From Sphaerotilus mobilis (GTDB taxonomy: Bacteria > Pseudomonadota > Gammaproteobacteria > Burkholderiales > Burkholderiaceae_C): 64,000 nt of DNA. How positions within the stretch are numbered: the stretch's first letter is position 1; each line of letters opens with the position of its first letter. The notes beneath the pieces are model-generated. The model was not told the DNA's origin. It was given only the letters and a program-made list of their open reading frames with translations, and did not search any database. A program made the position numbers and the translations under genes. The DNA lies in contig NZ_SGWV01000008.1 of the NCBI RefSeq assembly GCF_004216565.1, forward strand, positions 1 through 64,000, in the 5' to 3' direction. Shown in pieces: positions 18,272 to 62,988 of the stretch.

Positions 18272-19501
18272 GTGCTCAAGCCCGTCGCCAAGTCCAGCAA
18301 GCTCGCCAACGTGTGCTACGACATCCGTGGCCCGGTGCTGGAGAAGGCCCGCCAGATGGAGGAAGAAGGCCACAAGATCATCAAGCTCAACATCGGCAAC
18401 CTCGCCGTGTTCGGGCTGGAGCCGCCCGACGAGATCGTGCAGGACATGATCCGCAACATGCCGCATTCGGCCGGCTACACCGACAGCAAGGGCCTGTTCG
18501 CGCCGCGCAAGTCGGTCGTGCACTACACGCAGGAGAAGGGCGTCAAGGGCGTGACGGTGGACGATGTCTACCTCGGCAACGGCGCCTCCGAGCTGATCGC
18601 CATGAGCATGAACGCCTTGCTCGACGATGGCGACGAGGTGCTGATCCCCTCGCCCGACTACCCGCTCTACACCGCCGTCGTGGCGCTGTCCGGTGGCCGT
18701 CCGGTGCACTACCAGTGCGACGAGCAGAGCGAGTGGTACCCCGACATCGCCGACATCAAGGCCAAGATCACGTCGCGCACCAAGGCGATCGTGGTCATCA
18801 ACCCGAACAACCCGACCGGTGCGCTCTACCCGGACAGCCTGCTGCTTGAACTGATCGAGGTCGCGCGCCAGCATCAGCTGATCATCTTTGCCGACGAGAT
18901 CTACGACAAGACGCTCTACGACGGCAACTCGCACACCAGCATCGCCTCGCTGTGCGATGACGTTCTGACGCTGACCTTCAACGGCCTGAGCAAGAACTAC
19001 CGCTCCTGTGGCTACCGGGCCGGCTGGATGGTGGTCTCGGGCGACAAGCGCCATGCCCGCGACTACATCGAGGGCCTGACGATGCTGGCCTCCATGCGCT
19101 TGTGTGCCAACACGCCCGGGCAGCTGGCGATCCAGACCGCGTTGGGTGGCTACCAGAGCATCAAGGACCTCGTCGCGCCGACCGGCCGGCTGTGCCGCCA
19201 GCGGGATCTGGCGCACAAGCTGCTGACCGACATCCCCGGCGTCAGCTGCGTCAAGCCCAAGGGTGCGCTCTACATGTTCCCGCGCCTGGACCCCAAGCTC
19301 TACCCGATCGAGGACGACCAGGCCTTCGCTTACGAGCTGCTGGCCGAGGAGAAGGTCCTGATCGTGCAGGGCACCGGCTTCAACTGGCCGACCCCGGACC
19401 ACTTCCGGCTGGTCTTCCTGCCCAACTCGGACGACCTGACCGATGCGGTCATGCGCATCGCACGTTTTCTCGACGGCTACCGGCGCCGCCACGGTCGCTG
19501 A
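18272..19501 (+). CDS. alaA: Alanine aminotransferase AlaA (class I/II)
   Basis: PLP-dependent transfer of the glutamate amino group to pyruvate. The 409-residue length is close to E. coli AlaA. The fold-type I pattern is clear: NIGNLAVFGLEPP near the start, VVINPNNPTGALY, and the PLP lysine in FNGLSKNYRSCGYRAGW. Start GTG 18272 is chosen because AGGAGA (18262-18267) lies five bases upstream and the protein then begins where AlaA does. Homoserine dehydrogenase follows 79 bases later, the alaA-hom-thrC order seen in many betaproteobacteria. Confidence 0.92.
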   Translation: MLKPVAKSSKLANVCYDIRGPVLEKARQMEEEGHKIIKLNIGNLAVFGLEPPDEIVQDMIRNMPHSAGYTDSKGLFAPRKSVVHYTQEKGVKGVTVDDVYLGNGASELIAMSMNALLDDGDEVLIPSPDYPLYTAVVALSGGRPVHYQCDEQSEWYPDIADIKAKITSRTKAIVVINPNNPTGALYPDSLLLELIEVARQHQLIIFADEIYDKTLYDGNSHTSIASLCDDVLTLTFNGLSKNYRSCGYRAGWMVVSGDKRHARDYIEGLTMLASMRLCANTPGQLAIQTALGGYQSIKDLVAPTGRLCRQRDLAHKLLTDIPGVSCVKPKGALYMFPRLDPKLYPIEDDQAFAYELLAEEKVLIVQGTGFNWPTPDHFRLVFLPNSDDLTDAVMRIARFLDGYRRRHGR

Positions 19502-19580
19502 GCCGCTGCGACGTCGTCCGTCCTCGCCCGCTTTCCCGTTCCCCTAGACCCCTGAACCTGGCGCTCTGCGTCCCGCTTCC

Positions 19581-20891
19581 ATGAAACCCATTCAAGTCGG
19601 CCTGCTCGGCATCGGTACCGTCGGCAGTGGCACCTTCAACGTGCTGACCCGCAACCAGGAAGAGATCCGCCGCCGCGCGGGCCGGGGCATCGAGATCACG
19701 ATGGTGGCCGACCTCAACGTCGAGCGCGCCCGCGAGGTCGTCGGCGATCGTGCCCAGGTCGTGGCCGATGCGCGCCAGGTCATTGCCAACCCGGACATCG
19801 ACATCGTCATCGAGCTGATCGGCGGCTACGGCATCGCCCGCACGCTGGCGCTGGAGGCGATCGCCGCTGGCAAGCACGTGGTCACCGCCAACAAGGCGCT
19901 GCTGGCCGTGCACGGCTCGGAGATCTTCGCCGCCGCACGCGAGCGTGGCGTGATGGTTGCCTTCGAGGCCGCCGTGGCCGGTGGCATCCCCATCATCAAG
20001 GCCCTGCGTGAGGGCCTCACCGCCAACCAGATCCAGTGGGTCGCCGGCATCATCAACGGCACCACCAACTTCATCCTCAGCGAGATGCGCGACAAGGGCC
20101 TCGACTTCGAGGTCGTGCTCAAGGAGGCGCAGCGCCTGGGCTATGCGGAAGCCGATCCGACCTTCGACATCGAAGGGGTCGATGCGGCCCACAAGGCCAC
20201 GCTGATGAGCGCGCTGGCCTTCGGCATCCCGGTGCAGTTCGACAAGGCGCACGTCGAGGGCATCACCAAGCTCCAGGGCGCGGACATCCGCTACGCCGAG
20301 CAGCTCGGCTACCGCATCAAGCTGCTGGGCATCGCTCGCCGCCAGGCCGCCGGCATCGAGCTGCGTGTGCACCCGACGCTGGTGCCCAGCAAGCGCCTGA
20401 TCGCCAACGTCGAAGGTGCGATGAACGCGGTGATGGTGCAGGGCGATGCCGTGGGCACCACGCTGTACTACGGCAAGGGCGCCGGCAGCGAGCCGACCGC
20501 ATCGGCCGTGATCGCCGATCTGGTCGACATCACCCGTCTGCACACCGCCGACCCCGAGCAACGCGTGCCCCACCTGGCCTTCCAGCCCGACGAGCTGCAT
20601 GCCACGCCGATCGTGTCGATCGACCAGGTCGTGACCTCCTTCTATCTGCGCCTTCGGGTGGCCGACCAGAAGGGCGTGCTGGCCGCCATCACGCGCATCC
20701 TGGCCGAGTCCGACATCTCGATCGATGCGGTGCTGCAGCGCGAATCGGCCGAGGGCGAGCACTCCACCGACGTCATCATCCTGACGCACGAGACCGTCGA
20801 AGGCCGCATGCGTGCGGCGCTGACGCAGATGCAGGCCTTGCCGACGGTGCTTGCGCCCATCGTCAGCCTGCGCAAGGAAGAACTCGCCTGA
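19581..20891 (+). CDS. hom: Homoserine dehydrogenase
   Basis: NAD(P)H-dependent reduction of aspartate semialdehyde to homoserine in threonine and methionine synthesis. The 436-residue monofunctional enzyme has a Rossmann start (VGLLGIGTVGSGT), the family motif AGIINGTTNFILSEM and the catalytic region EADPTFDIEGVDAAHK. A C-terminal ACT domain (about residues 355-430, RVADQKGVLAAITRIL) probably binds a regulatory amino acid such as threonine. thrC follows 8 bases later, so the two are cotranscribed. Confidence 0.97.
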   Translation: MKPIQVGLLGIGTVGSGTFNVLTRNQEEIRRRAGRGIEITMVADLNVERAREVVGDRAQVVADARQVIANPDIDIVIELIGGYGIARTLALEAIAAGKHVVTANKALLAVHGSEIFAAARERGVMVAFEAAVAGGIPIIKALREGLTANQIQWVAGIINGTTNFILSEMRDKGLDFEVVLKEAQRLGYAEADPTFDIEGVDAAHKATLMSALAFGIPVQFDKAHVEGITKLQGADIRYAEQLGYRIKLLGIARRQAAGIELRVHPTLVPSKRLIANVEGAMNAVMVQGDAVGTTLYYGKGAGSEPTASAVIADLVDITRLHTADPEQRVPHLAFQPDELHATPIVSIDQVVTSFYLRLRVADQKGVLAAITRILAESDISIDAVLQRESAEGEHSTDVIILTHETVEGRMRAALTQMQALPTVLAPIVSLRKEELA

Positions 20892-52749: not shown

Positions 52750-53673
52750 ATGCTCGACGCCCGCCAGCTGCAAGCCTTTGTCGCGGTCCTGGAACACGGC
52801 GGCTTCGGCCCGGCCGCGCAGGCGCTTGACCTGACGCTGGCCGCCGTCTCGCTGCGCATCAAGTCGCTGGAATCCGGCCTCGGCCAGCGCCTGGTCGTGC
52901 GTGGCAAGACGGTCAGGGCGACAGCGGCCGGGCAGGCACTGCTGGCCCACGTCAAGCAGGTCCGGCTGATGGAAGCCGACCTGCTGGCCGGCCTGCCCGG
53001 TGGACGGGCACGCGGCGCAGCCGCCTGGCAGAGCCTGGGCGTGGCGATCAACGCCGACTCCGTCGCCAGTTGGTTCCTGCCCGGCGTGGCACCGCTGCTG
53101 CAGCGTCACCGGCTGCTGATGGAGATCGTCATCGACGACCAGGACCACACCCACGATGCCCTCAAGAGCGGCGACGTGGTCGGCTGCGTGACAACGCTGG
53201 CCCGCGCCATCCGCGGCTGCGTGGCCGAGCCCCTGGGCGCCTTGCGCTACCGCTGCGTCGCCTCGCCCGAGGTGGCCGCGCGCTGCCGCACGCCAACCGG
53301 CCGCCTGTCACCCCACCGCCTGCTGGCCGAGCCGGCCGTCATCTTCAACCGCAAGGACGCCCTGCAGGACACCTTCCTGGCCCAGCACCTGGGCCTGCGC
53401 CAGCCGCACTACCCACGCCACCACGCCCCAGCGGTCGACGCCTTCGAACGCGCCATCGAACTCGGCCTGGGCTGGGGCATGGTCCCCGAACAGCACCTGA
53501 CCGACCGCCCCAGCCTGGTCGAGGTCCTGCCCGATGCAACGGTCGACGTCCACCTCTACTGGCACCACTGGGCCCGCGAATCCGACCCCGCCCGCCGGCT
53601 GACCGAGTCGGTCAAGGCGGCGGCGCGGGGGAGCTTGCATCAGGAGGGGGAAGGGGCGTCAGCGGCGGTCTGA
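52750..53673 (+). CDS. LysR family regulator, ArgP/LysG type
   Basis: A 307-residue transcription factor with an N-terminal winged helix-turn-helix (MLDARQLQAFVAVLEHGGF, AAVSLRIKSLE) and a ligand-binding domain. NADSVASWFLPGV, VGCVTTLARAIRGC and LGALRYRCVASPEVA follow ArgP, which binds lysine or arginine. Divergent to davBA and next to two LysR-type dyads, it is probably the lysine-responsive regulator of that operon. ArgP more often controls the arginine/lysine exporter argO, which is not present here. The last 15 residues are Gly/Ala-rich and may be variable. Confidence 0.85.
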   Translation: MLDARQLQAFVAVLEHGGFGPAAQALDLTLAAVSLRIKSLESGLGQRLVVRGKTVRATAAGQALLAHVKQVRLMEADLLAGLPGGRARGAAAWQSLGVAINADSVASWFLPGVAPLLQRHRLLMEIVIDDQDHTHDALKSGDVVGCVTTLARAIRGCVAEPLGALRYRCVASPEVAARCRTPTGRLSPHRLLAEPAVIFNRKDALQDTFLAQHLGLRQPHYPRHHAPAVDAFERAIELGLGWGMVPEQHLTDRPSLVEVLPDATVDVHLYWHHWARESDPARRLTESVKAAARGSLHQEGEGASAAV

Positions 53674-54278
53674 TGGCACAAGGCTGCTCGAAGCAATCTT
53701 GGCAACCAACCTCATCGTGTGACGGTGCCACGGCATGTGCGGCGTGATCGACATGCCTTGGCGAATCGGGGTGGAAGGCATTCCGGTTGGGCTGGACAGC
53801 GAAGCCGCTTTAGGGCTGTAAGTGCGCGGCGGATTAAAGGCGGAAGGGCGACGCCTTGGCCGCTCGGTGGGGTTGGGGCTTGGGGCTTGGGTTGGGTGTC
53901 TGTAGATGTGACGGGAAGGTCTTCTCTGCAGCGTGAGGAGTCGGGGGCGGTCAGCGGGTGGACTCACGGCAATCGCCATCAAGCGGTCACTTGGTCTCAC
54001 GGCCGGCACCGCTACGGGCGGCAGCCATGGGGCGGTCAGCTGACTCTCGGGATGCCACGACGCTGCCTCCCACTGTGAGTGACCGCCCCAACTGCGCCAC
54101 GGACTCCTCCGACCCGAAGCGGACCGTCGTAATCTACGGAGGCGGACGTTCGGCCGAAAGCTTTTTGATGTTCCCTGTAATCTGCCGCAAATGTGGGGCA
54201 GAATTCAGCGCGCAGACCCGAGTGGATTATTGGGTCAAAATTAAACGAGCATCATCACTACGTGTTTAGTGCGCTTCT
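53674..54278. other. Intergenic left margin of the island, no supported gene
   Basis: These 605 bases carry no convincing gene. The left part keeps the high-GC style of the chromosome, with a G/T-rich stretch near 53872-53900 (repeated GGGGTTGGGGCTTGGGG-like units). From about 54160 the sequence becomes AT-richer. A 33-codon frame at 54168-54269 (start MFPVICRKCGAEF, one CxxC) could be a tiny or decayed gene but cannot be supported. The left boundary of the island probably lies here. No tRNA or direct repeat was recognised. Confidence 0.6.
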
Positions 54279-56675
54279 ATGAGTAAGCCAATCGAAGCCA
54301 TTCTGGCGGAATGCGAGGATCTAATCTCACGCAATGAGGTTAGTCGAGCATTCGACACTCTCCTTGCACTTATCCAGCATGGAAGCAAGGTCGACATCCA
54401 GCGCCTCCAACCGTCGCTGAGCGAAATCATTGTGCGCTTTCTCCCGAAACGGAAGCGCGACCTCGGCCAAGCGCTGGAGCAACGTCTTGGCACGAGCGAT
54501 GCGCGCGACGCCGTCCCGGTAGCGAAGACGAAGTCCGCACAAGGAGGCATCAAAGAGTTCGAGTCGACGGTCAGTGATCGCTTTGATGAGCTGAGCCGCT
54601 GGCACATTTTCCAGTGGTCAACGTATTACCGGGACGAACTGCGCGGCATCCTTGCCGACGTTGTTGATCTGATCCGGGCCGACAAGGCCGCAGATGCCGC
54701 ATTTGATCTTCTGCGCGACCACGCGCGTAAACACGCCAGAGAGATCTTCACGAAGGGCTATACCTTCGTTATGTCCCAGCCCTGGGCCGTTGCGGACTCG
54801 GCTGAAGGGAAGGCACTCGGCGGGCTCCGTTCCTTTCTAGTCTTGCCCGTTGAGCTGTATGCCGACCAGTCAGCCCGACTAAGTGCCCCGCAAGACTGCA
54901 GAGTCCTGAGGCGCGCAACCTCTCGGCTTCTGTCGGCAATCTTGCTTGGCTTCTCTGAAGCCACTTTGGGATCCAGTTCCGCGATTGAGATGCTGCGACG
55001 GACAGTCAAGTCCTGGGCGCATGTACTTCCACTCCTGGAGGGGCAGGATCTCAAGGCAGTCGATCAGCGCCTCGGGCTCGATACGCTATCGCCCATTCTC
55101 GGCGAGCCGTTGCATCGCTTGACATGCGCTCTGGATGAAGCGTCCCAGATGAGCAGTGTCGATCCAATAGTGGTGCTGTTCACCTCGATGAACTTGTACG
55201 ATCGAGTCCTAGACGTGACGCTTCGTCCACCGGCAGATTCCAGCGATACGAAGCCACTCGAAGTGGCGGTCATCGGTGGAGATGGTATCACCGCACGCTC
55301 GCAGATCGAGCAACGGGCCAAGCATGGCTACATTGCGTGCTTAACTAACAGGCCCGCGCGAGACTATTGGGGCGGAAAGTTTGTGCCTGGAACCATCGCA
55401 GAGCTCGTCGTGCCGCTTGCAGAAGCCAACAGTGGTTTTTTGCTTACTCGATTGCGGCAGCGGTTCCACGAAACCAAGGTCTTGATACCGAGGGGCGCTC
55501 CACTGCGTACCAACGTCGCAGAGCGCTTCCCTCTAGAGAACCCCACCCTTCTCACCTTCTTCCGTGTGCAGCGTCAGAGCATCCGTGCCCTCGAATCGAC
55601 CATTTCCAACCGCACTGGTGTTCTTCTTTGGTGCAGTGTCAGGCGCAGTGGAAAAACCACGGGGGTCACCGAACTAGCAAACGCCATCCAAGGGAAGAGC
55701 GCCGTCTTTCAGCGGTGTGAGATGACCGGCCTGGACCAGGCGAGTCGCGTGCTCTTTGAGGCTGTGCGCGATGCGCTCTCTGAATTGGTCCCGCTTCCGA
55801 AAGACTTCGTACGCAAGCTCGTCGCTCAGGCCGCTCCAATGGGTGTTGCTCCGAGCCAAGGCTCCATTCTGATTCTCGATGAGTACGACCGGCTGTTTGG
55901 CCTTCTTCGTGCCGCTGGGCGGCGGAACGAGGATGCACGCCACTTGGTTGTGCAGCCACTTCTCGACCAGCTTGTGGAGTTCGCCACTGAGAACTTGTTG
56001 ATCTTTCTCGGTCAGCAGCCAAACGCGCATTTTATCTTCATGGATCAGAACCAGTTGAGCGCGTACGTGCAGCAGGAGTCGTATCCGCTCTTCTCTCATT
56101 CGAAAGATGCGACGCAGGGCGAGTTCTGGGATCTACTGGAGAAGGTATTTTCAAATACACTGAAGTACGACGCATCGTTCGCGAATCGGGCCTTCGAGGA
56201 GACCGGCGGGCACCCGTTCTTGACGGTGAACCTTTTGCGAGAGCTGGTGGACTGGCTGATCAGCAAAAGCGTCGTTCCGAGCGACGTCATGCTGACCAGG
56301 GCAATGTTCGACGAGTTTATGGGTGAGAGACTCGATCCCAAGTCGATTGCGTTGAGCAAACACTTCGAGTATTTCAGGTCAGCCGCCGCCGAGGCACTTT
56401 CTGACGACGGCGCCAAGGAGGCGCCCTGGGTCCATACTGCTTATCACCTCTTGACTTTGCTCGGCACCTCCGGCGCAGGCGGGAAGCTGGCTGCGAATCG
56501 CGCCGACATCGAGGCATCGCTCACCGCCACGTTGGAGCTAGCTGGATTGTCGAGCTTCACATGCGAGTCCTTCATCGCCAGTGCGGCTCGAAGCAACTTC
56601 GTGGAGGTCGAGGATGATCAGGTCGCGGCCAAGATTCCCATCTTGGCCAGGATCGCTTCAGCGACCCGCAGGTGA
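54279..56675 (+). CDS. Large STAND-like P-loop ATPase of unknown function
   Basis: A 798-residue protein. The N-terminal 430 residues are mostly helical and match nothing known. An AAA/STAND ATPase core follows: Walker A SVRRSGKTT (G458-K459-T460, with Ser in place of the first Gly) and Walker B ILILDEYDRL (D534-E535), then a helical C-terminal domain. The RRSGKT form is like the archaeal-ATPase/STAND clade. Codon choice is visibly less GC-biased than in the flanking chromosome. The next gene starts 24 bases later, so they form a pair. A defence sensor/ATPase role is inferred from context only. Confidence 0.75.
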   Translation: MSKPIEAILAECEDLISRNEVSRAFDTLLALIQHGSKVDIQRLQPSLSEIIVRFLPKRKRDLGQALEQRLGTSDARDAVPVAKTKSAQGGIKEFESTVSDRFDELSRWHIFQWSTYYRDELRGILADVVDLIRADKAADAAFDLLRDHARKHAREIFTKGYTFVMSQPWAVADSAEGKALGGLRSFLVLPVELYADQSARLSAPQDCRVLRRATSRLLSAILLGFSEATLGSSSAIEMLRRTVKSWAHVLPLLEGQDLKAVDQRLGLDTLSPILGEPLHRLTCALDEASQMSSVDPIVVLFTSMNLYDRVLDVTLRPPADSSDTKPLEVAVIGGDGITARSQIEQRAKHGYIACLTNRPARDYWGGKFVPGTIAELVVPLAEANSGFLLTRLRQRFHETKVLIPRGAPLRTNVAERFPLENPTLLTFFRVQRQSIRALESTISNRTGVLLWCSVRRSGKTTGVTELANAIQGKSAVFQRCEMTGLDQASRVLFEAVRDALSELVPLPKDFVRKLVAQAAPMGVAPSQGSILILDEYDRLFGLLRAAGRRNEDARHLVVQPLLDQLVEFATENLLIFLGQQPNAHFIFMDQNQLSAYVQQESYPLFSHSKDATQGEFWDLLEKVFSNTLKYDASFANRAFEETGGHPFLTVNLLRELVDWLISKSVVPSDVMLTRAMFDEFMGERLDPKSIALSKHFEYFRSAAAEALSDDGAKEAPWVHTAYHLLTLLGTSGAGGKLAANRADIEASLTATLELAGLSSFTCESFIASAARSNFVEVEDDQVAAKIPILARIASATRR

Positions 56676-56699
56676 CGCACCCATAGACAACGAATCATT

Positions 56700-57719
56700 A
56701 TGAACGTTCAAGTTATCGCAGACTACCTCAGGAACCTTCACGTGCAACGCGACGTTGCCGTGGCCGCGTATTGGCTTGACGAGGCAGCATCGCGCTCAGA
56801 ACTCGTGTCCCAGCTCTCGGCTCTGCTGTCGGACCTACCCATCCTCATTGCCGCAGTCCCGAAAGGAGCCTTCGATGATGCGAATGGGATCATCGACGAC
56901 CTAGCGAAGACCATTTCGGACAACGTCGAGTGGTTCGGCGAGGAAAAGCGAACAGCCATTACTCGAGATGAGAAGTTCTCGCTGGTCCTGGTGTCAAAAC
57001 GGTCACTTGGCGTCCCCCAGCTTTCTTCACCGGTTACCTTGCCAGACTGGTTTCCGCAATGGCCCTGCGAGCTGTTGACGGTCACGATCAAGAACGTTAC
57101 GGACTCTATCGACATTTCATTCGCATCGCCGGATATCCCTGTCGCCTCTATCAACGCTTCGTTGCATGCGCTCGAATCTGCTCTATGTGCAAGGCTTGCC
57201 TCTGTCTATGGGCGCGCCCCGACAGCCGCTGCGAAGTTGCGTGCACGCCTTGGCGGAAGCAAGGGCCCTGTCGATTTGATACACCTGATCTCCCAGTCAG
57301 AGGACAAGAGACGTCGTGTCGCACCTGACGACTTCCGGCCGGGAGGTAGCGCAAGTGGTGAGTATCTTGTATCGCGACTGTTCAGCCAATGGTGGGAGTG
57401 CAGTCACAAAGACCTTCACAATCTTGCGGTCGACATAGCAGAAGCGCTGGATATCCACACGGGCTCCAATGTCGAGGCGCAACATTCCTTGGCATCGCTG
57501 CTGACACGTACTGTGAAACCGAAGCTCGCGGATACCCCGCCCGGGGTGACGCTTGCTCGCAATGCGATCGTCAGCTTGGCCCATGCGATTCAATTCACGA
57601 ATGCCGTTCATCATGCCGGCGACTACCCCAACTTTCCGGCTGTGCTCACGATCAGCTACGCAAAGGACTTGTCTCGGTCGTGTAAGCGTGCGGCGGCTGC
57701 ACTCGGCAATTTGGCTTGA
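56700..57719 (+). CDS. Uncharacterised partner of the STAND-like ATPase
   Basis: A 339-residue soluble protein from ATG 56700, in the same direction as and 24 bases after the ATPase gene. The first half is mixed alpha/beta (VAAYWLDEAASRSELVSQLS onward) and the second half helical, ending LSRSCKRAAAALGNLA. I see no signal peptide, membrane helix, nuclease, protease or nucleotide-binding motif. It shares the lower-GC codon use of the island. It could be an effector or a sensor for the ATPase; which one cannot be told. The family is not recognised. Confidence 0.65.
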   Translation: MNVQVIADYLRNLHVQRDVAVAAYWLDEAASRSELVSQLSALLSDLPILIAAVPKGAFDDANGIIDDLAKTISDNVEWFGEEKRTAITRDEKFSLVLVSKRSLGVPQLSSPVTLPDWFPQWPCELLTVTIKNVTDSIDISFASPDIPVASINASLHALESALCARLASVYGRAPTAAAKLRARLGGSKGPVDLIHLISQSEDKRRRVAPDDFRPGGSASGEYLVSRLFSQWWECSHKDLHNLAVDIAEALDIHTGSNVEAQHSLASLLTRTVKPKLADTPPGVTLARNAIVSLAHAIQFTNAVHHAGDYPNFPAVLTISYAKDLSRSCKRAAAALGNLA

Positions 57720-57983
57720 TCATGGGGACCGCGAATCAAGTGTAGGTTGGTTCAACACCTGCGCAAATGATCAACTGCATGGTGGATGCGGTAGACCAAA
57801 GAGGTCTGTTTTGCGGGCGCATGGGGATTCCTGCTCTTGGCCGGCAGCGCGCGTTCGCAGCCGAGCCAGCAAGCTGACATTACGGCCGGCGTCCTCGCTG
57901 GCGGAGGTTAGCTGTCGGCGATTCCGACTGAGGACCGGGCTGGCCAGGAGCTGTCGTTCACGAATGGCAAGTTTCAGCCATTG

Positions 57984-59036
57984 CTAAGCCCCAGACTGCA
58001 ATAGCCCTACCCGAAGTGAGCGGGCGTGGGCTGTGATGAAAGGGGGCGGCAGCGCGTTCCCGATCATGAGAGCAATTGACTCCTTACCATGCGCAACGTT
58101 GAACTTGTAGGAGCGCGGAAATCCTTGCAACACTGCAGCTTCGCGCAGACTGATGGTCCTATCCTGTCCCGGATGCAAAAAACGTCCTTTTGATGGGTTG
58201 TGGCAACCGCTGGTGATGGTAGGAGATACATCATCCCAAGAGAGGCGACCGTAGACATCACTGAAGCCATCGCTGCGCTTGTGACAGTCCAACTGGTATT
58301 TCGCGGGCAAGTCACAACGGCTGCCCCCATCCTTCGGTATAAGCGCTATGAGGTCTCGGACCTTCTGTGACCGGTTTTCGCCCAGGCTATGAAGCTTGTC
58401 CCGTCCCTGCCCTGGCTCAACCATGCCCTTTAGAGCTTGCCGAACCGTTAGGCGCATCTTTGCTTTTTCTCCGACCGCCGGTACATGTACCCTCGACGCG
58501 AGCATGATGAGCCGTTTGCGTCGCTGAGGTACTGAGTAGTCAGCCGCGTCCAGTACGTGGACTACGGTCTCGTAGCCAAGCGCGCGCAACCTGTTCTGCA
58601 TGCCGAGAAATCGTGCATCCTTTGCCAGTGCAGGAACGTTCTCAAGCATCACCGTTTTCGGCTTCATGACCTCGATGAAGCGGAGGAAGTCATCCACGAG
58701 ATCATTTCGGTCGTCGTTCACCGAGGTCATCTTGTTTTTGGTGCGCAGGCGGGAAAAGCCCTGGCATGGTGGGCAGCCAGCCAACAAGTCAAGCTCCCCA
58801 GCGGCAAGACTCGCCTGTTCAAGAATTTCCCGAGGATCGAGCTTGCGAATGTCCTCGGCGTAAAGTCGGACGTTGGGGTGATTAAGGCGGTAGGTTTCTT
58901 GCGCCTTATAGTCGAACTCTACCGCTGCGGCCACTGTGAAGCCCGCGCCTTTGAGCCCGAGGCTCAGCCCGCCGCAACCGCTAAATAGGTCAATGGCATA
59001 TAGCTTCCGTTCTGCTGGTTTCTTAGCGCGGATCAT
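57984..59036 (-). CDS. DNA C5-cytosine methyltransferase
   Basis: Methylates carbon 5 of cytosine within a DNA recognition site. The 350-residue protein has the ordered motifs: I (AIDLFSGCGGLSLGLKGAGF), IV with catalytic C91 (GCPPCQGFSR), VI (E132-N133-V134, MLENVPAL), VIII (QRRKRL) and X near the end (MIGNALPP). The target recognition region between VIII and IX is about 90 residues; its site is unknown. No Vsr or ordinary restriction endonuclease lies beside it. It begins 21 bases after the OLD-like gene on the same strand, so they form an operon. Confidence 0.93.
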   Translation of the reverse strand: MIRAKKPAERKLYAIDLFSGCGGLSLGLKGAGFTVAAAVEFDYKAQETYRLNHPNVRLYAEDIRKLDPREILEQASLAAGELDLLAGCPPCQGFSRLRTKNKMTSVNDDRNDLVDDFLRFIEVMKPKTVMLENVPALAKDARFLGMQNRLRALGYETVVHVLDAADYSVPQRRKRLIMLASRVHVPAVGEKAKMRLTVRQALKGMVEPGQGRDKLHSLGENRSQKVRDLIALIPKDGGSRCDLPAKYQLDCHKRSDGFSDVYGRLSWDDVSPTITSGCHNPSKGRFLHPGQDRTISLREAAVLQGFPRSYKFNVAHGKESIALMIGNALPPPFITAHARSLRVGLLQSGA

Positions 59037-59057
59037 TCGTACAAGGACGTCGATGCT

Positions 59058-60926
59058 TCAAGGTTGATCACTTTGACGATGGCGGGCCATCGCCTTAGGA
59101 AGATGCGCGACAAGAATCTGCGCAAGTTGGGCCAGCTCTGCCGATCCAGCGCGGTTACGGGCCAGAAGCTCTTCACCGTGCATGTCAGTGCGCTGATTGG
59201 TGGCGTCCTGACCGTACAACTCGACCGTCAGGGAACGCAAGCGGTCCTTGTGGTGCTGGGCTGTCGTCGCAGCAGCGTCGATTTTTCCAGCGGCGATCAG
59301 AACCAGCGCCTCTGGGCACAGCGTTGGAATAAAGTGTACATTTTGTCTCAGCCACGCAAGGTAGCGACGCTGGGCCGCCGCCCGCTGGACCGCATTACCA
59401 CCAGCAACCCCGCCATCCACGGTGAAGGCGGGCTCGACACCCACAGCCTCCAAAATCCTTGCGCCGAGACTTCCATCATCGGCCGCCGCGATTGTGTCTG
59501 GATCGACGAACTCGTCTAATCGCTTCTTGTCGCCATCGAGCAGTATCAGCGTATGACCAGGCGCCGACATCAACACAGGAACCTGGTACTTCAGGATTGC
59601 CTCAGCACCGCCTGTCATGTACTCAACCTTGAAGATCGCAGCTTGGGCTTGGTCTGAAAACAGCATCAGCGCCTGCTTCACGACAGATTTGGCAAGCTGG
59701 TCTTCCACTAGCACCCGCACTTCACCTCCGTCAACGACCCCAAGTCGTCGAAACGCGGCATACGGGTGGCTGGCATCCAGGACAACAAATCGGCCATCGT
59801 CAAGCTGATGGAAGGCCTTGATCGCATCGTCGGGCAGCGCGGCAATGAGATGCGGCGAGTGCGTAGAAAAGACCACCTGGAGCTGCTTGGTTCTGGCCAT
59901 CTTCGACAGGAATGCCAGCAAGCGCTCTTGTGCACCAGGGTGCAAGGAGACCTCCGGCTCATCCAGCAGAACTAGCGTGCCCCTTTGCGCGCCGAGAATC
60001 TGGACTACGCAGCTTGTTACCGCGACCTCTCCGCTGCCAGCGAACGCCTCAGAATAGCGACCATGCTTGGTCTTAAAAACCACGCTCAGCCCACCGTCTC
60101 CCTTGAAGAGTCGATGCCGAATCCAACGAGCTTCTTCATACTGCCTACCCAATACGAAGCTCGCTATTTCAAGCTCTTCCTGATTCAGCAGCCGGTTCTC
60201 CGTCGCCACCTTGCGATTGCGATACTTATAGGCCGTGTTGCCGGATTCTATGACGCGCGCAAGCAATTCGGCATCGTGCCGCACCTGATCCATTTTGCTT
60301 GAAATTCGCAGCGGGGACACCCTTGCCCCCTTGGGCGGAGGTGCATGAGGTACGGGCTCCTTCCCGAAGTAGAAGTACTTGTCGAACGCGCTCAATTCTT
60401 TTCGGAAGTTGATGTACAGAACCTTGCGCGACACCGGATTCCACCGGTCCTTGGAGCGTCCCCCATAAGACTTGTTCGGCTTCAATTCAGGCTCGACCAT
60501 GCCGTCACCAGGACTTTCCTTTGTCGGCTCCCAATAGTTGGGATCAGGCAACCCATTGCGCGTCTTGCGCACTCTAGCCTTGCGCGTTTCAACGATGCCG
60601 TTGAAGGCGGCATTGCGATAGCCGTAAATGAAGCGACTCGGGCTGCCCTCCCCTTCCTCAATAGGGTCAACCTTCGTGCTGAACCAGTACTGTCCGGTGG
60701 ACCGCCCGGCGGGCGCGCCATACAAGGCGTTCAGAACCGAGGTCTTCCCTGAGCCATTGGACCCGACCAAGGCTGTGACTGGAAATGAAAAGTCAATGCG
60801 CGTCCCGTCCGCTATGTTCTTGAAGCGGGGAAAGCGTATGTGGGTGATGTAGCCAGGAAAAACCTTCGCATATTTGCCGCGAATCGACTCAAGGCTAGCG
60901 ATCTCATCGCTGAGGTTCAACTTCAT
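59058..60926 (-). CDS. OLD-like AAA ATPase with TOPRIM nuclease domain
   Basis: A 622-residue protein with an ABC-type ATPase and a C-terminal TOPRIM domain, the OLD-family layout. Walker A is GSNGSGKTS (G60-K61-T62), the signature-like region is FAGSGEVAV, and Walker B is LVLLDEPEVSLHP (D322-E323) with the FSTHSPHLI histidine loop. TOPRIM acids are E408-D409 (VLVEDQLAK) and D464-x-D466 (LLDGDKK). Related OLD and fused AriA-AriB (PARIS) proteins act in phage defence. The gene leads directly into the C5 methyltransferase. It is probably a metal-dependent nuclease or nicking enzyme. Confidence 0.85.
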   Translation of the reverse strand: MKLNLSDEIASLESIRGKYAKVFPGYITHIRFPRFKNIADGTRIDFSFPVTALVGSNGSGKTSVLNALYGAPAGRSTGQYWFSTKVDPIEEGEGSPSRFIYGYRNAAFNGIVETRKARVRKTRNGLPDPNYWEPTKESPGDGMVEPELKPNKSYGGRSKDRWNPVSRKVLYINFRKELSAFDKYFYFGKEPVPHAPPPKGARVSPLRISSKMDQVRHDAELLARVIESGNTAYKYRNRKVATENRLLNQEELEIASFVLGRQYEEARWIRHRLFKGDGGLSVVFKTKHGRYSEAFAGSGEVAVTSCVVQILGAQRGTLVLLDEPEVSLHPGAQERLLAFLSKMARTKQLQVVFSTHSPHLIAALPDDAIKAFHQLDDGRFVVLDASHPYAAFRRLGVVDGGEVRVLVEDQLAKSVVKQALMLFSDQAQAAIFKVEYMTGGAEAILKYQVPVLMSAPGHTLILLDGDKKRLDEFVDPDTIAAADDGSLGARILEAVGVEPAFTVDGGVAGGNAVQRAAAQRRYLAWLRQNVHFIPTLCPEALVLIAAGKIDAAATTAQHHKDRLRSLTVELYGQDATNQRTDMHGEELLARNRAGSAELAQLAQILVAHLPKAMARHRQSDQP

Positions 60927-61497
60927 TGCGTGCTCACCATGCGCATCACGTCACTTCCGGGGCTCACAATGTCAGCCAACTGTCCTGCGCTAGCCACCAG
61001 CCGCAGCGGCTTTAAGATTTCTTCGGCATTTCTTCCCTGCATGCTTCCTGGCTCCCGATCATTTAGAAGTATCACCTATTCGGGCGGAAAATCCTGCCCC
61101 ACGAGGCGTGGGCTCGGGACCTCGCCATTGAAGCCGCCGACGCGCTGGCTATCGACAACTGCGGACTCGGAGCAACTCATCATTCCAGCGCAGACATGAG
61201 TGACTGCATTTTCGCAGCGTGGCGGGCGATTCGAAGATCTGCTCCGGGTCGGTACCGCCACACTGACCCTTGAGAGAGCGGACTCGGCCGAGCACTTGGG
61301 CGATGGCGTGCGGTCTGCCCGGGCAATCTGGCGCGATGGCAGCTTCCTGGGAACTGCGGTCACAGACTGCGGCACAAACCGAACGGCCGGTTCAGGTGGC
61401 CGGCGACGCTCGCCCACGCGGACTGAATGTCTCAGTCCAGTCTTCACCGGATCTTCCATCCAGCAACCCGATCGCCCCTCGAGCCTGCCCTCCCACC
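60927..61497. other. Intergenic right margin of the island, no supported gene
   Basis: These 571 bases hold no gene I can support. The first 150 bases continue the AT-richer style of the island and must contain the OLD-like gene promoter. The rest returns to high GC. Open frames exist on both strands (such as 61200-61592 on plus), but their products are Ser/Arg/Pro-rich with no domain and extend into the end of the dehydrogenase gene. This is the probable right junction of the island; no integrase, tRNA or flanking repeat was found. Confidence 0.6.
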
Positions 61498-62988
61498 TCA
61501 CCTCATCACATCCCCAATACACAAGTACTTCATCTCCACATAGTCCTCGATCCCATGGCGCGAGCCCTCGCGGCCGAGGCCGGATTGTTTGACGCCGCCG
61601 AAGGGGACTTCGGCCACGGAGATGAGGCCGGTGTTGATGCCGACCATGCCGGTTTCTAGTGCCTCGGCGACGCGGAAGATGCGGCCGATGTCGCGGCTGT
61701 AGAAGTAGCTGGCGAGGCCGAATTCGGTGGCGTTGGCCAGGTTGATGACGTCGGCTTCCGTGTCGAAGCGGAAGACCGGGGCGACCGGGCCGAAAGTTTC
61801 CTCGCGGGCGCAGAGCATGTCGGCGGTGACGTTGGCGAGCACCGTCGGCGTGTAGAAGCGCTCGGCCAGTGCGCCCGGGGCGCGGCTGCCGCCGGTCACC
61901 AGCGTGGCGCCCTTGGCGAGGGCGTCGGCCACGTGGGACTCGACCTTGTTCATGGCCTGGGCGTCGATCAGCGGGCCCTGGTTGACGCCCGGTGCGAAGC
62001 CGTTGCCGACCTGGATGGCGCGGGCCTTGGCGGCCAGTTTCTCGACGAAGGCGTCGTAGACGCCTGCCTGCACATAGAGCCGGTTGGCACAGACGCAGGT
62101 CTGGCCGGCGTTGCGGTATTTGCTGATCAGGGCGCCTTCGGCCGCGCTGTCCAGGTCGGCGTCGTCGAAGACGATGAAGGGTGCGTTGCCGCCCAGTTCG
62201 AGGCTGAGCTTCTTGATCGTCGGCGCGCACTGGCGCATCAGGATGCGGCCGACCTCGGTGGAGCCGGTGAAGCTCAGGTGGCGCACCACGTCGGAGGCGC
62301 ACAGGACGTTGCCGATCTCGATCGAGCGGTCGGCGTCGGCCGTCAGGATGTTGAGCACGCCAGCGGGCATGCCCGCGCGCAGGGCCAGTTCGGCACAGGC
62401 CAGCGCTGACAGCGGCGTCTGCTCGGCCGGCTTGATGACGACCGGGCAGCCGGCGGCCAGGGCCGGGGCGACCTTGCGGGTGATCATCGCGATCGGGAAG
62501 TTCCACGGCGTGATCGCCGCGCAGACGCCGATCGGCTGCTTGAGCACGATGAAGCGCTTGTTCGGATCGGTGGTCGGGATGGTCTCGCCGTAGACGCGCT
62601 TGCCTTCCTCGGCGAACCACTCGATGAAGCTGGCGCCGTACATGACCTCGCCGCGCGCCTCGGACAGCGGCTTGCCCTGTTCGGCGGTCATGATGCGGGC
62701 CAGGTCATCGGCATGCTGGACCAGCAGGTGGAACCAGCGCATCAGGATCGCGGCGCGTTCCTTGGCGGGCTTGGCCTTCCACGCGGGCCAGGCCGCATTC
62801 GCTGCCGCGATGGCCTGTTCGGCGTCGGCCGCGCCGGTGTTGGCGACGTCGGCCAGCCGTAGGCCGGTGGCCGGGTCTTCGACCGCGAAACGCGAAGCGC
62901 CCGCAACCCACTCGCCGTTGATCAGCGCATCGGTGCGCAGCAGGGTGGGGTCGGCGAGCAGGGCCAGCGGGGAGGTTTGGGTGTCCAT
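61498..62988 (-). CDS. gabD: Succinate/glutarate semialdehyde dehydrogenase (GabD/DavD type)
   Basis: NAD(P)-dependent oxidation of succinate semialdehyde, and in the lysine route glutarate semialdehyde. The 496-residue enzyme has the aldehyde dehydrogenase core: PWNFPIAMI, the Glu motif LELGGNAPFIVFDDAD and the catalytic cysteine in NAGQTCVCANR. The C-terminus FGGVKQSGLGREGSRHGI is typical of GabD. It is read after gbuA on the same strand with an 87-base gap. Both 4-guanidinobutyrate (via GABA) and lysine (via aminovalerate) breakdown need such an enzyme. Confidence 0.92.
   Translation of the reverse strand: MDTQTSPLALLADPTLLRTDALINGEWVAGASRFAVEDPATGLRLADVANTGAADAEQAIAAANAAWPAWKAKPAKERAAILMRWFHLLVQHADDLARIMTAEQGKPLSEARGEVMYGASFIEWFAEEGKRVYGETIPTTDPNKRFIVLKQPIGVCAAITPWNFPIAMITRKVAPALAAGCPVVIKPAEQTPLSALACAELALRAGMPAGVLNILTADADRSIEIGNVLCASDVVRHLSFTGSTEVGRILMRQCAPTIKKLSLELGGNAPFIVFDDADLDSAAEGALISKYRNAGQTCVCANRLYVQAGVYDAFVEKLAAKARAIQVGNGFAPGVNQGPLIDAQAMNKVESHVADALAKGATLVTGGSRAPGALAERFYTPTVLANVTADMLCAREETFGPVAPVFRFDTEADVINLANATEFGLASYFYSRDIGRIFRVAEALETGMVGINTGLISVAEVPFGGVKQSGLGREGSRHGIEDYVEMKYLCIGDVMR

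Follow-up and report, generated by a model that had tools for sequence, protein, structure and literature searches.

STAND NTPase defence proteins (Avs, bNACHT etc.) are among the known systems closest to one of the proteins described here, and C-terminal sensor repeats are a feature of many STAND proteins. Among ATPase-TOPRIM proteins, HEC-04 and its relative IbfA have been reported to be active against phages (PMC12111858). Our analysis concerned a 64,000-nucleotide stretch of Sphaerotilus mobilis DNA (contig NZ_SGWV01000008.1, positions 1 to 64,000; the window in the following), in which four genes, P1 to P4, form an island. The original prediction of two facing modules with four open reading frames (ORFs) at 54279-60926 was confirmed, and all four ORFs are unbroken (Table 1). 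On balance, the island probably consists of two independent accessory modules, P1-P2 being an unnamed anti-phage ATP-switch and P3-P4 a methylation-guarded OLD nuclease. The main surprise is P1-P2, a conserved, patchily spread and unnamed gene pair.

Relatives of P1 were found in two records of a plasmid collection and in 17 loci of a genome collection, the latter by two short patterns based on a two-row alignment, a search which was not exhaustive. A P2 relative is located directly 3' of P1 on the same strand in all 18 other loci considered (17 contigs and a Klebsiella plasmid). The 17 contigs span four phyla. Pseudomonadota are represented by Acidovorax, Sterolibacterium, a Burkholderiaceae metagenome-assembled genome (MAG), Acinetobacter and three further MAGs, and the remaining loci belong to one Acidobacteria MAG, three Gemmatimonadota MAGs and six Actinomycetota. 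Gaps between the two genes range from -4 to 101 bases (18 measured, namely the window and 17 others; start codons chosen by hand, L019 excluded), and the distances among P1 proteins co-vary with those among their P2 partners (Mantel r 0.87, p 0.0001; 17 pairs). In the P1 tree, the window is joined by Acidovorax and Sterolibacterium (100/100), and the Burkholderiaceae MAG falls in a set with Acinetobacter and the Klebsiella plasmid (100/100). This conflicts with taxonomy, as expected of a mobile gene. A search of the plasmid collection with the Nocardia P2 as query returned the same two records only, and blastn with the Klebsiella P1-P2 pair did not detect it in E. coli genomes. Two copies look decayed, since L019:9494-11467 contains a partial P1 (match residues 308-580) sharing one open frame with P2, and in L010:12419-13450 a stop lies inside the P2 frame.

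P1 is composed of a helical N-terminal part, an ATPase core in the C-terminal half and a helical C-terminal part. In the predicted model (predicted local distance difference test, pLDDT, 77; predicted template modelling score, pTM, 0.51) the first 290 residues are helical and are followed by an alpha/beta stretch, and about 180 mostly helical residues come after the core. The motifs are intact. Walker A (SVRRSGKTT) was found at residues 453-461 and Walker B (ILILDEYD) at residues 530-537, with S457, G458, K459 and T460 of the former and D534-E535-Y536 of the latter invariant in 18 members. GGHPFLT at residues 643-649 is a GHP/GxP-type motif, and a strongly conserved GQQPxAHFIxxDQNQLS stretch is located behind the sensor-1 position. 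An HIFQW motif at residues 109-119 includes the invariant H109, I110, W113, T115 and Y117. Foldseek related the model to RuvB (E 1e-3), the archaeal ATPase 2fna (1.5e-3) and the plant NLR protein RPP1 (0.04), with ORC1 also among the best matches. For the P1 of the window the only Pfam match was AAA at 0.036, under the cut-off, and AAA_22 was matched by 4 out of 18 members, at best with 0.0006; neither PADLOC nor NCBIfam gave a match and PHROGs gave weak ones or none. Motifs and weak fold matches thus fit a STAND/ORC-like ATPase, short of proof, and P1 is quite likely to work as an ATP-driven switch.

P2 had been described as an unknown partner, and its library and fold matches were weak or absent. 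For P2 of the window there was no PADLOC or NCBIfam match, none in Pfam above the cut-off, and weak or no matches in PHROGs. When 37 P1 and P2 members were searched against PADLOC (version of 2023) at E 0.01, a single match resulted (PDC-S57, 0.009), and a PDB profile search with P1 and P2 gave one match each, at E 0.45 and 0.38. The P2 model (pLDDT 90, pTM 0.81) shows an alpha/beta N-terminal domain followed by helices, and a search of the PDB and viral fold libraries yielded nothing at E <= 0.001, mostly weak AAA+-like pieces. A SSPxxLPxWFP motif lies at residues 109-119 and H305 in the helical C-terminal part. The invariant residues W25, R32, F58, N62, S110, P111, P115, W117 and P119 compose no recognised active site. 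No homology between P1 and P2 was detected (hhalign probability 0.3%). It is possible, if somewhat less likely than not, that P2 itself is a toxic effector in the two-gene form.

The four genes had been noted as types found in phage-defence islands, and known defence genes were named near several P1-P2 relatives (6 out of 17 loci). Eleven neighbour proteins from 7 loci, picked by eye, were scanned individually, and the other 10 loci were covered by the bulk scan. Both Gabija genes are located just upstream of P1 in L003, and in L016 about 3 kb upstream on the other strand. In L014, P1-P2 is flanked by GmrSD and a type III restriction enzyme; GmrSD is also found near the pair in L008, SIR2 and a CAP12-type TIR in L017, a DndB/DpdB-like gene in L004, and the NYN gene described below in L013. 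In the bulk scan at 1e-15, PADLOC reported 165 families for 82 neighbour ORFs versus 20 for 82 control ORFs, which had been taken from 13 regions in these genomes; this difference speaks for a defence role. The Pfam families among the neighbours (25 of 62 viewed) included NYN with 4 members, GmrSD with 2 and OLD-TOPRIM with 2. Two genes of the second Klebsiella plasmid (L068:12718-13959 and 18935-20001), encoding a dGTP triphosphohydrolase and a NACHT protein, lie within 10 kb of P1-P2.

A third gene accompanies the pair in part of the Actinomycetota. An NYN-domain gene is located 3' of P2 in 4 out of 6 actinobacterial loci (L009, L013, L017 and L018; at about 13.1-14.8 kb of each locus), encoding a protein of 484-487 amino acids in three of them, while in L009 the match extends over about 489 columns. 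These four loci constitute one clade of the P1 tree (100/100), hence a single gain of the third gene is probable. The NYN protein is somewhat likely to be the effector in its actinobacterial clade, where it points to RNA cleavage as the output.

Judged by families, motifs and neighbours, P1-P2 is likely to be an anti-phage system. Several observations weigh against this. The fold matches of P1 are weak, with E from 1e-3 to 0.2, a TM-score of at most 0.2 on the query and a root-mean-square deviation above 11. No NACHT or NB-ARC profile match was obtained for P1 among 18 members at E 0.1, so that the STAND-like nature claimed for it in the original prediction is carried by motifs and weak fold matches and not by a profile. 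Since P2 lacks a confident fold or family, no effector activity can be named. A total of 11 out of 17 loci are without any named known defence gene, and the neighbours include metabolic families, e.g. FMN_dh and alanine racemase (again among the 25 of 62 families viewed). In the bulk PADLOC comparison, the neighbour and control ORFs are crude calls and both family numbers are inflated by redundant models, as many GajA models match the same two proteins. The control ORFs match defence models too (SspH, HamB, mad8, BrxH). P1 was found neither in phage records nor, by pattern scans, in viral contigs. Finally, the family is very rare, being present in 0/249, 0/397 and 0/297 other genomes, where scoring was confined to the few best candidates of each genome.

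The second module carries a C5-cytosine DNA methyltransferase, P3, as originally proposed: it matches Pfam PF00145 (5.2e-58) and TIGR00675 (4.6e-47) and contains the motifs GCPPCQ, ENV and QRRKR. Its best PADLOC matches were DruM2 and type II methyltransferases. For P4, predicted to be an OLD-like ATPase-TOPRIM protein, the ATPase part was borne out by profiles (PF13304 1.3e-19; PADLOC HEC-04 3.3e-35; PDB 6p74 OLD 6.7e-9 over residues 310-382) and by the Walker A and B motifs, signature and H-loop of an ABC-type ATPase. The TOPRIM part rests on motifs: the acidic residues E408, D464 and D466 are kept in the G069 homologue, but Pfam gave no TOPRIM match. Relatives of P4 were detected at the set thresholds in 1/249 other genomes of the order sample, 2/397 others of the phylum sample and 6 viral contigs. 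A P3-like methyltransferase adjoins the P4 relative in 9 out of 9 of these loci; the two genes converge in L030 and share one strand in the other loci. As far as can be judged from sequence, the P3-P4 module is most likely an OLD nuclease of the phage type that is guarded by methylation. On one viral contig (L025:7885-11277) a UvrD-like helicase gene and a Vsr-like gene, named by eye, were seen behind the P3-P4 pair, and tblastn matches to both occur on another (L022:13-3579). Neither gene type was found in the stretches covered of the other seven P3-P4 loci.

The prediction had treated the four genes as one combination, which could mean that P1-P4 form one four-part defence system. This is now very unlikely and largely refuted. 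The four genes are adjacent, convergent and alike in G+C content (GC) and in GC at third codon positions (GC3), and none of the 12 remaining genomes in the genus has P1 or P4, which would agree with a single system. However, the two convergent pairs are separate transcription units, and each pair recurs alone. A P3 match is absent from all 18 P1-P2 loci, and the sole P4 match there is weak and lies inside the GajA gene of L003; P3-related methyltransferases (E <= 1e-30, 35-43% identical) occur in 5 out of 16 P1-P2 genomes (L006 left out), none of them in the flanks covered around P1-P2. Conversely, neither P1 nor P2 was found in the available flanks of the nine P3-P4 loci. Co-occurrence elsewhere was therefore observed for the P1-P2 and P3-P4 pairs and not for the four genes together, and because each pair recurs without the other, two modules and not one have to be assumed; the single four-gene system was rejected on this ground. 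P1-P2 might instead serve the upkeep of plasmids or mobile elements (replication, partition, transposition) through an ORC/TnsC/RuvB-like ATPase, with defence genes as fellow passengers. The fold matches of P1 to RuvB and ORC1 would suit such a role, as would the location of P1-P2 on two Klebsiella plasmids, both typed conjugative, near insertion sequence elements, and the presence in L007 and L016 of ORFs that look integrase-like by eye. On the other hand, L009 and L010 are on records titled chromosome (the rest being draft contigs), the gene clusters common to the loci include no recognised transposase, integrase or replication gene, and the island is flanked by no long repeats, only by short chance-like ones. 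We regard this explanation as quite improbable.

Only slightly better are the chances of a toxin-antitoxin-like or stress module that is not directed against phages and acts, for example, by growth arrest through RNA cleavage. The constant pairing of P1 and P2 and the linkage of an NYN nuclease gene in one clade are compatible with it. Yet P1 and P2 are not small, and by profile neither resembles a toxin; the surroundings are richer in defence genes than the controls, and a STAND-like ATPase would be an unusual antitoxin. A more serious competitor, if still less probable than the nuclease guarded by methylation, concerns P3-P4. These genes may be an ordinary type II restriction-modification pair with an OLD-like nuclease, or a phage-borne shielding methylase joined to an old-type exclusion gene. 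In support of this, P3 is 54-72% identical in 7 out of 9 loci (32-36% in two) and P4 35-45%, and on viral contigs the genes next to the pair resemble, by eye, those for phage repressors or tails. Against it stands that OLD nucleases are not known to act as sequence-specific restriction enzymes.

For our favoured reading of two independent modules, we infer defence function, sensing, order of activation and effector identity from sequence. P1 would sense an infection cue, probably via its helical N-terminal half, and may, with ATP, change its state or oligomerise. The constant partner P2 would relay the signal to an effector or itself be the effector, and in the actinobacterial NYN clade the NYN protein may act as the effector that cuts RNA. 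In the second module, P3 would mark self DNA, and P4 may attack or abort when the P3 mark or another signal is wrong. The full picture of an as yet unnamed two-component immune system in at least four phyla, with a sensor ATPase using its N-terminal half, a partner of new fold and an NYN RNase as a plug-in of one sub-clade, is tentative, its chances being a little short of even. If P1-P2 is anti-phage, it adds an immune module whose proteins, as present in the window, bear no family name in Pfam, NCBIfam and PADLOC 2023, and P2 brings a partner protein without a recognised fold. Because the pair exists with and without the NYN gene, the roles of sensor, adaptor and effector could be told apart by comparing the three-gene form with the two-gene one. 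In P3-P4, a methyltransferase that viral contigs carry as well is coupled to an OLD nuclease, so that it can be tested whether OLD proteins read DNA methylation.

Table 1. Positions of the island genes and related features in the window.
Feature	Position	Strand	Description
P1	54279..56675	+	798 amino acids, unbroken ORF
P2	56700..57719	+	339 amino acids, unbroken ORF, partner of P1
P3	57984..59036	-	C5-cytosine DNA methyltransferase, unbroken ORF
P4	59058..60926	-	ABC ATPase of the OLD type, TOPRIM-like acidic motifs in the C-terminal part, unbroken ORF
Walker A of P1	55635..55661	+	motif reading
Stretch without DNA match in nearest congener	53627..61497	no strand	DNA alignment

The island most likely represents horizontally acquired accessory DNA. 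The two gene pairs converge on a gap of 264 bases. GC per kb amounts to 0.560-0.585 between 54 and 61 kb compared to 0.69-0.72 between 48 and 54 kb; to the right of the island (61-64 kb) it is 0.645 and then 0.69-0.72. With 0.573 the island has the lowest GC among 6,648-base windows of the whole 64 kb, the 948 off-island windows of this size, which overlap strongly, having a mean of 0.701, a standard deviation of 0.015 and a minimum of 0.661. The predicted deviation in codon use was reproduced by this low-GC block and by GC3, which is 0.63-0.68 in P1-P4 versus 0.90-0.95 in four flanking genes. The genes on either side, named by eye, are amine oxidase-, LysR regulator-, aldehyde dehydrogenase- and agmatinase-like. 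An alignment with the nearest congener stops at 53626 and restarts at 61498, so that the foreign DNA exceeds the four genes. No integrase match was obtained near the island, Rfam at gathering scores revealed no RNA element in it, and promoters and terminators on it were not in excess over shuffles. The start of the window, where GC is lower, holds a phage-integrase match (1201-1803, E 1.4e-37) some 52 kb away from the island.

That the region is accessory and not vertically conserved, as had been supposed, is in line with the presence of P1 and P4 each in only 1 out of 13 genomes of the genus, the S. mobilis genome itself. The aldehyde dehydrogenase gene was retrieved from 11 other genomes of the genus at the set threshold, and the adjacent region was read in 8. 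Both flanks are kept in one of these 8, L047, the nearest relative by this gene (93% identical); in the other 7 the left flank is outside the 9 kb read. In place of the 7.9-kb stretch found here, L047 has a different one of 1.9 kb, which includes a gene that looks GGDEF-like by eye (L047:4927-6648). As this GGDEF-like gene is present in only 1 out of 13 genomes and absent from S. mobilis, the gap between the LysR and aldehyde dehydrogenase genes appears to be a variable site.

We did not recognise a system like P1-P2 in the part of the literature that was covered, and an independent naming later than the 2023 version of PADLOC is possible. With STAND defence proteins P1 shares the P-loop, the D-E-Y Walker B, a GxP-type motif behind the core and a weak NLR fold match, but it differs by the lack of a NACHT/NB-ARC profile, the position of the ATPase in the C-terminal half and the separate conserved partner P2. 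With type II restriction-modification the second module has in common the required C5 methyltransferase with its motifs. The ABC-ATPase-anchored restriction-like systems of the Aravind group (cited in PMC12839542) share with it the use of OLD-type ATPases in conflict systems. P4 resembles GajA of Gabija, an OLD-type ATPase-TOPRIM protein. However, it is weak on GajA models (best 1.8e-18) and is paired with a C5 methyltransferase, whereas Gabija consists of GajA and the UvrD helicase GajB; the window gave no UvrD-like match with the L025 helicase as query, and no helicase-like ORF lies beside P4 (by eye). The best PADLOC match of P4, HEC-04/IbfA, has the same domain order, but the match is partial, with the best stretch covering residues 238-472 of 622. 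Moreover, HEC-04 is described as a single ATPase-TOPRIM protein (PMC12111858), in contrast to the P4 relatives with their adjoining P3. We class P3-P4 as a variant among OLD-type systems, one in which the partner is a methyltransferase.

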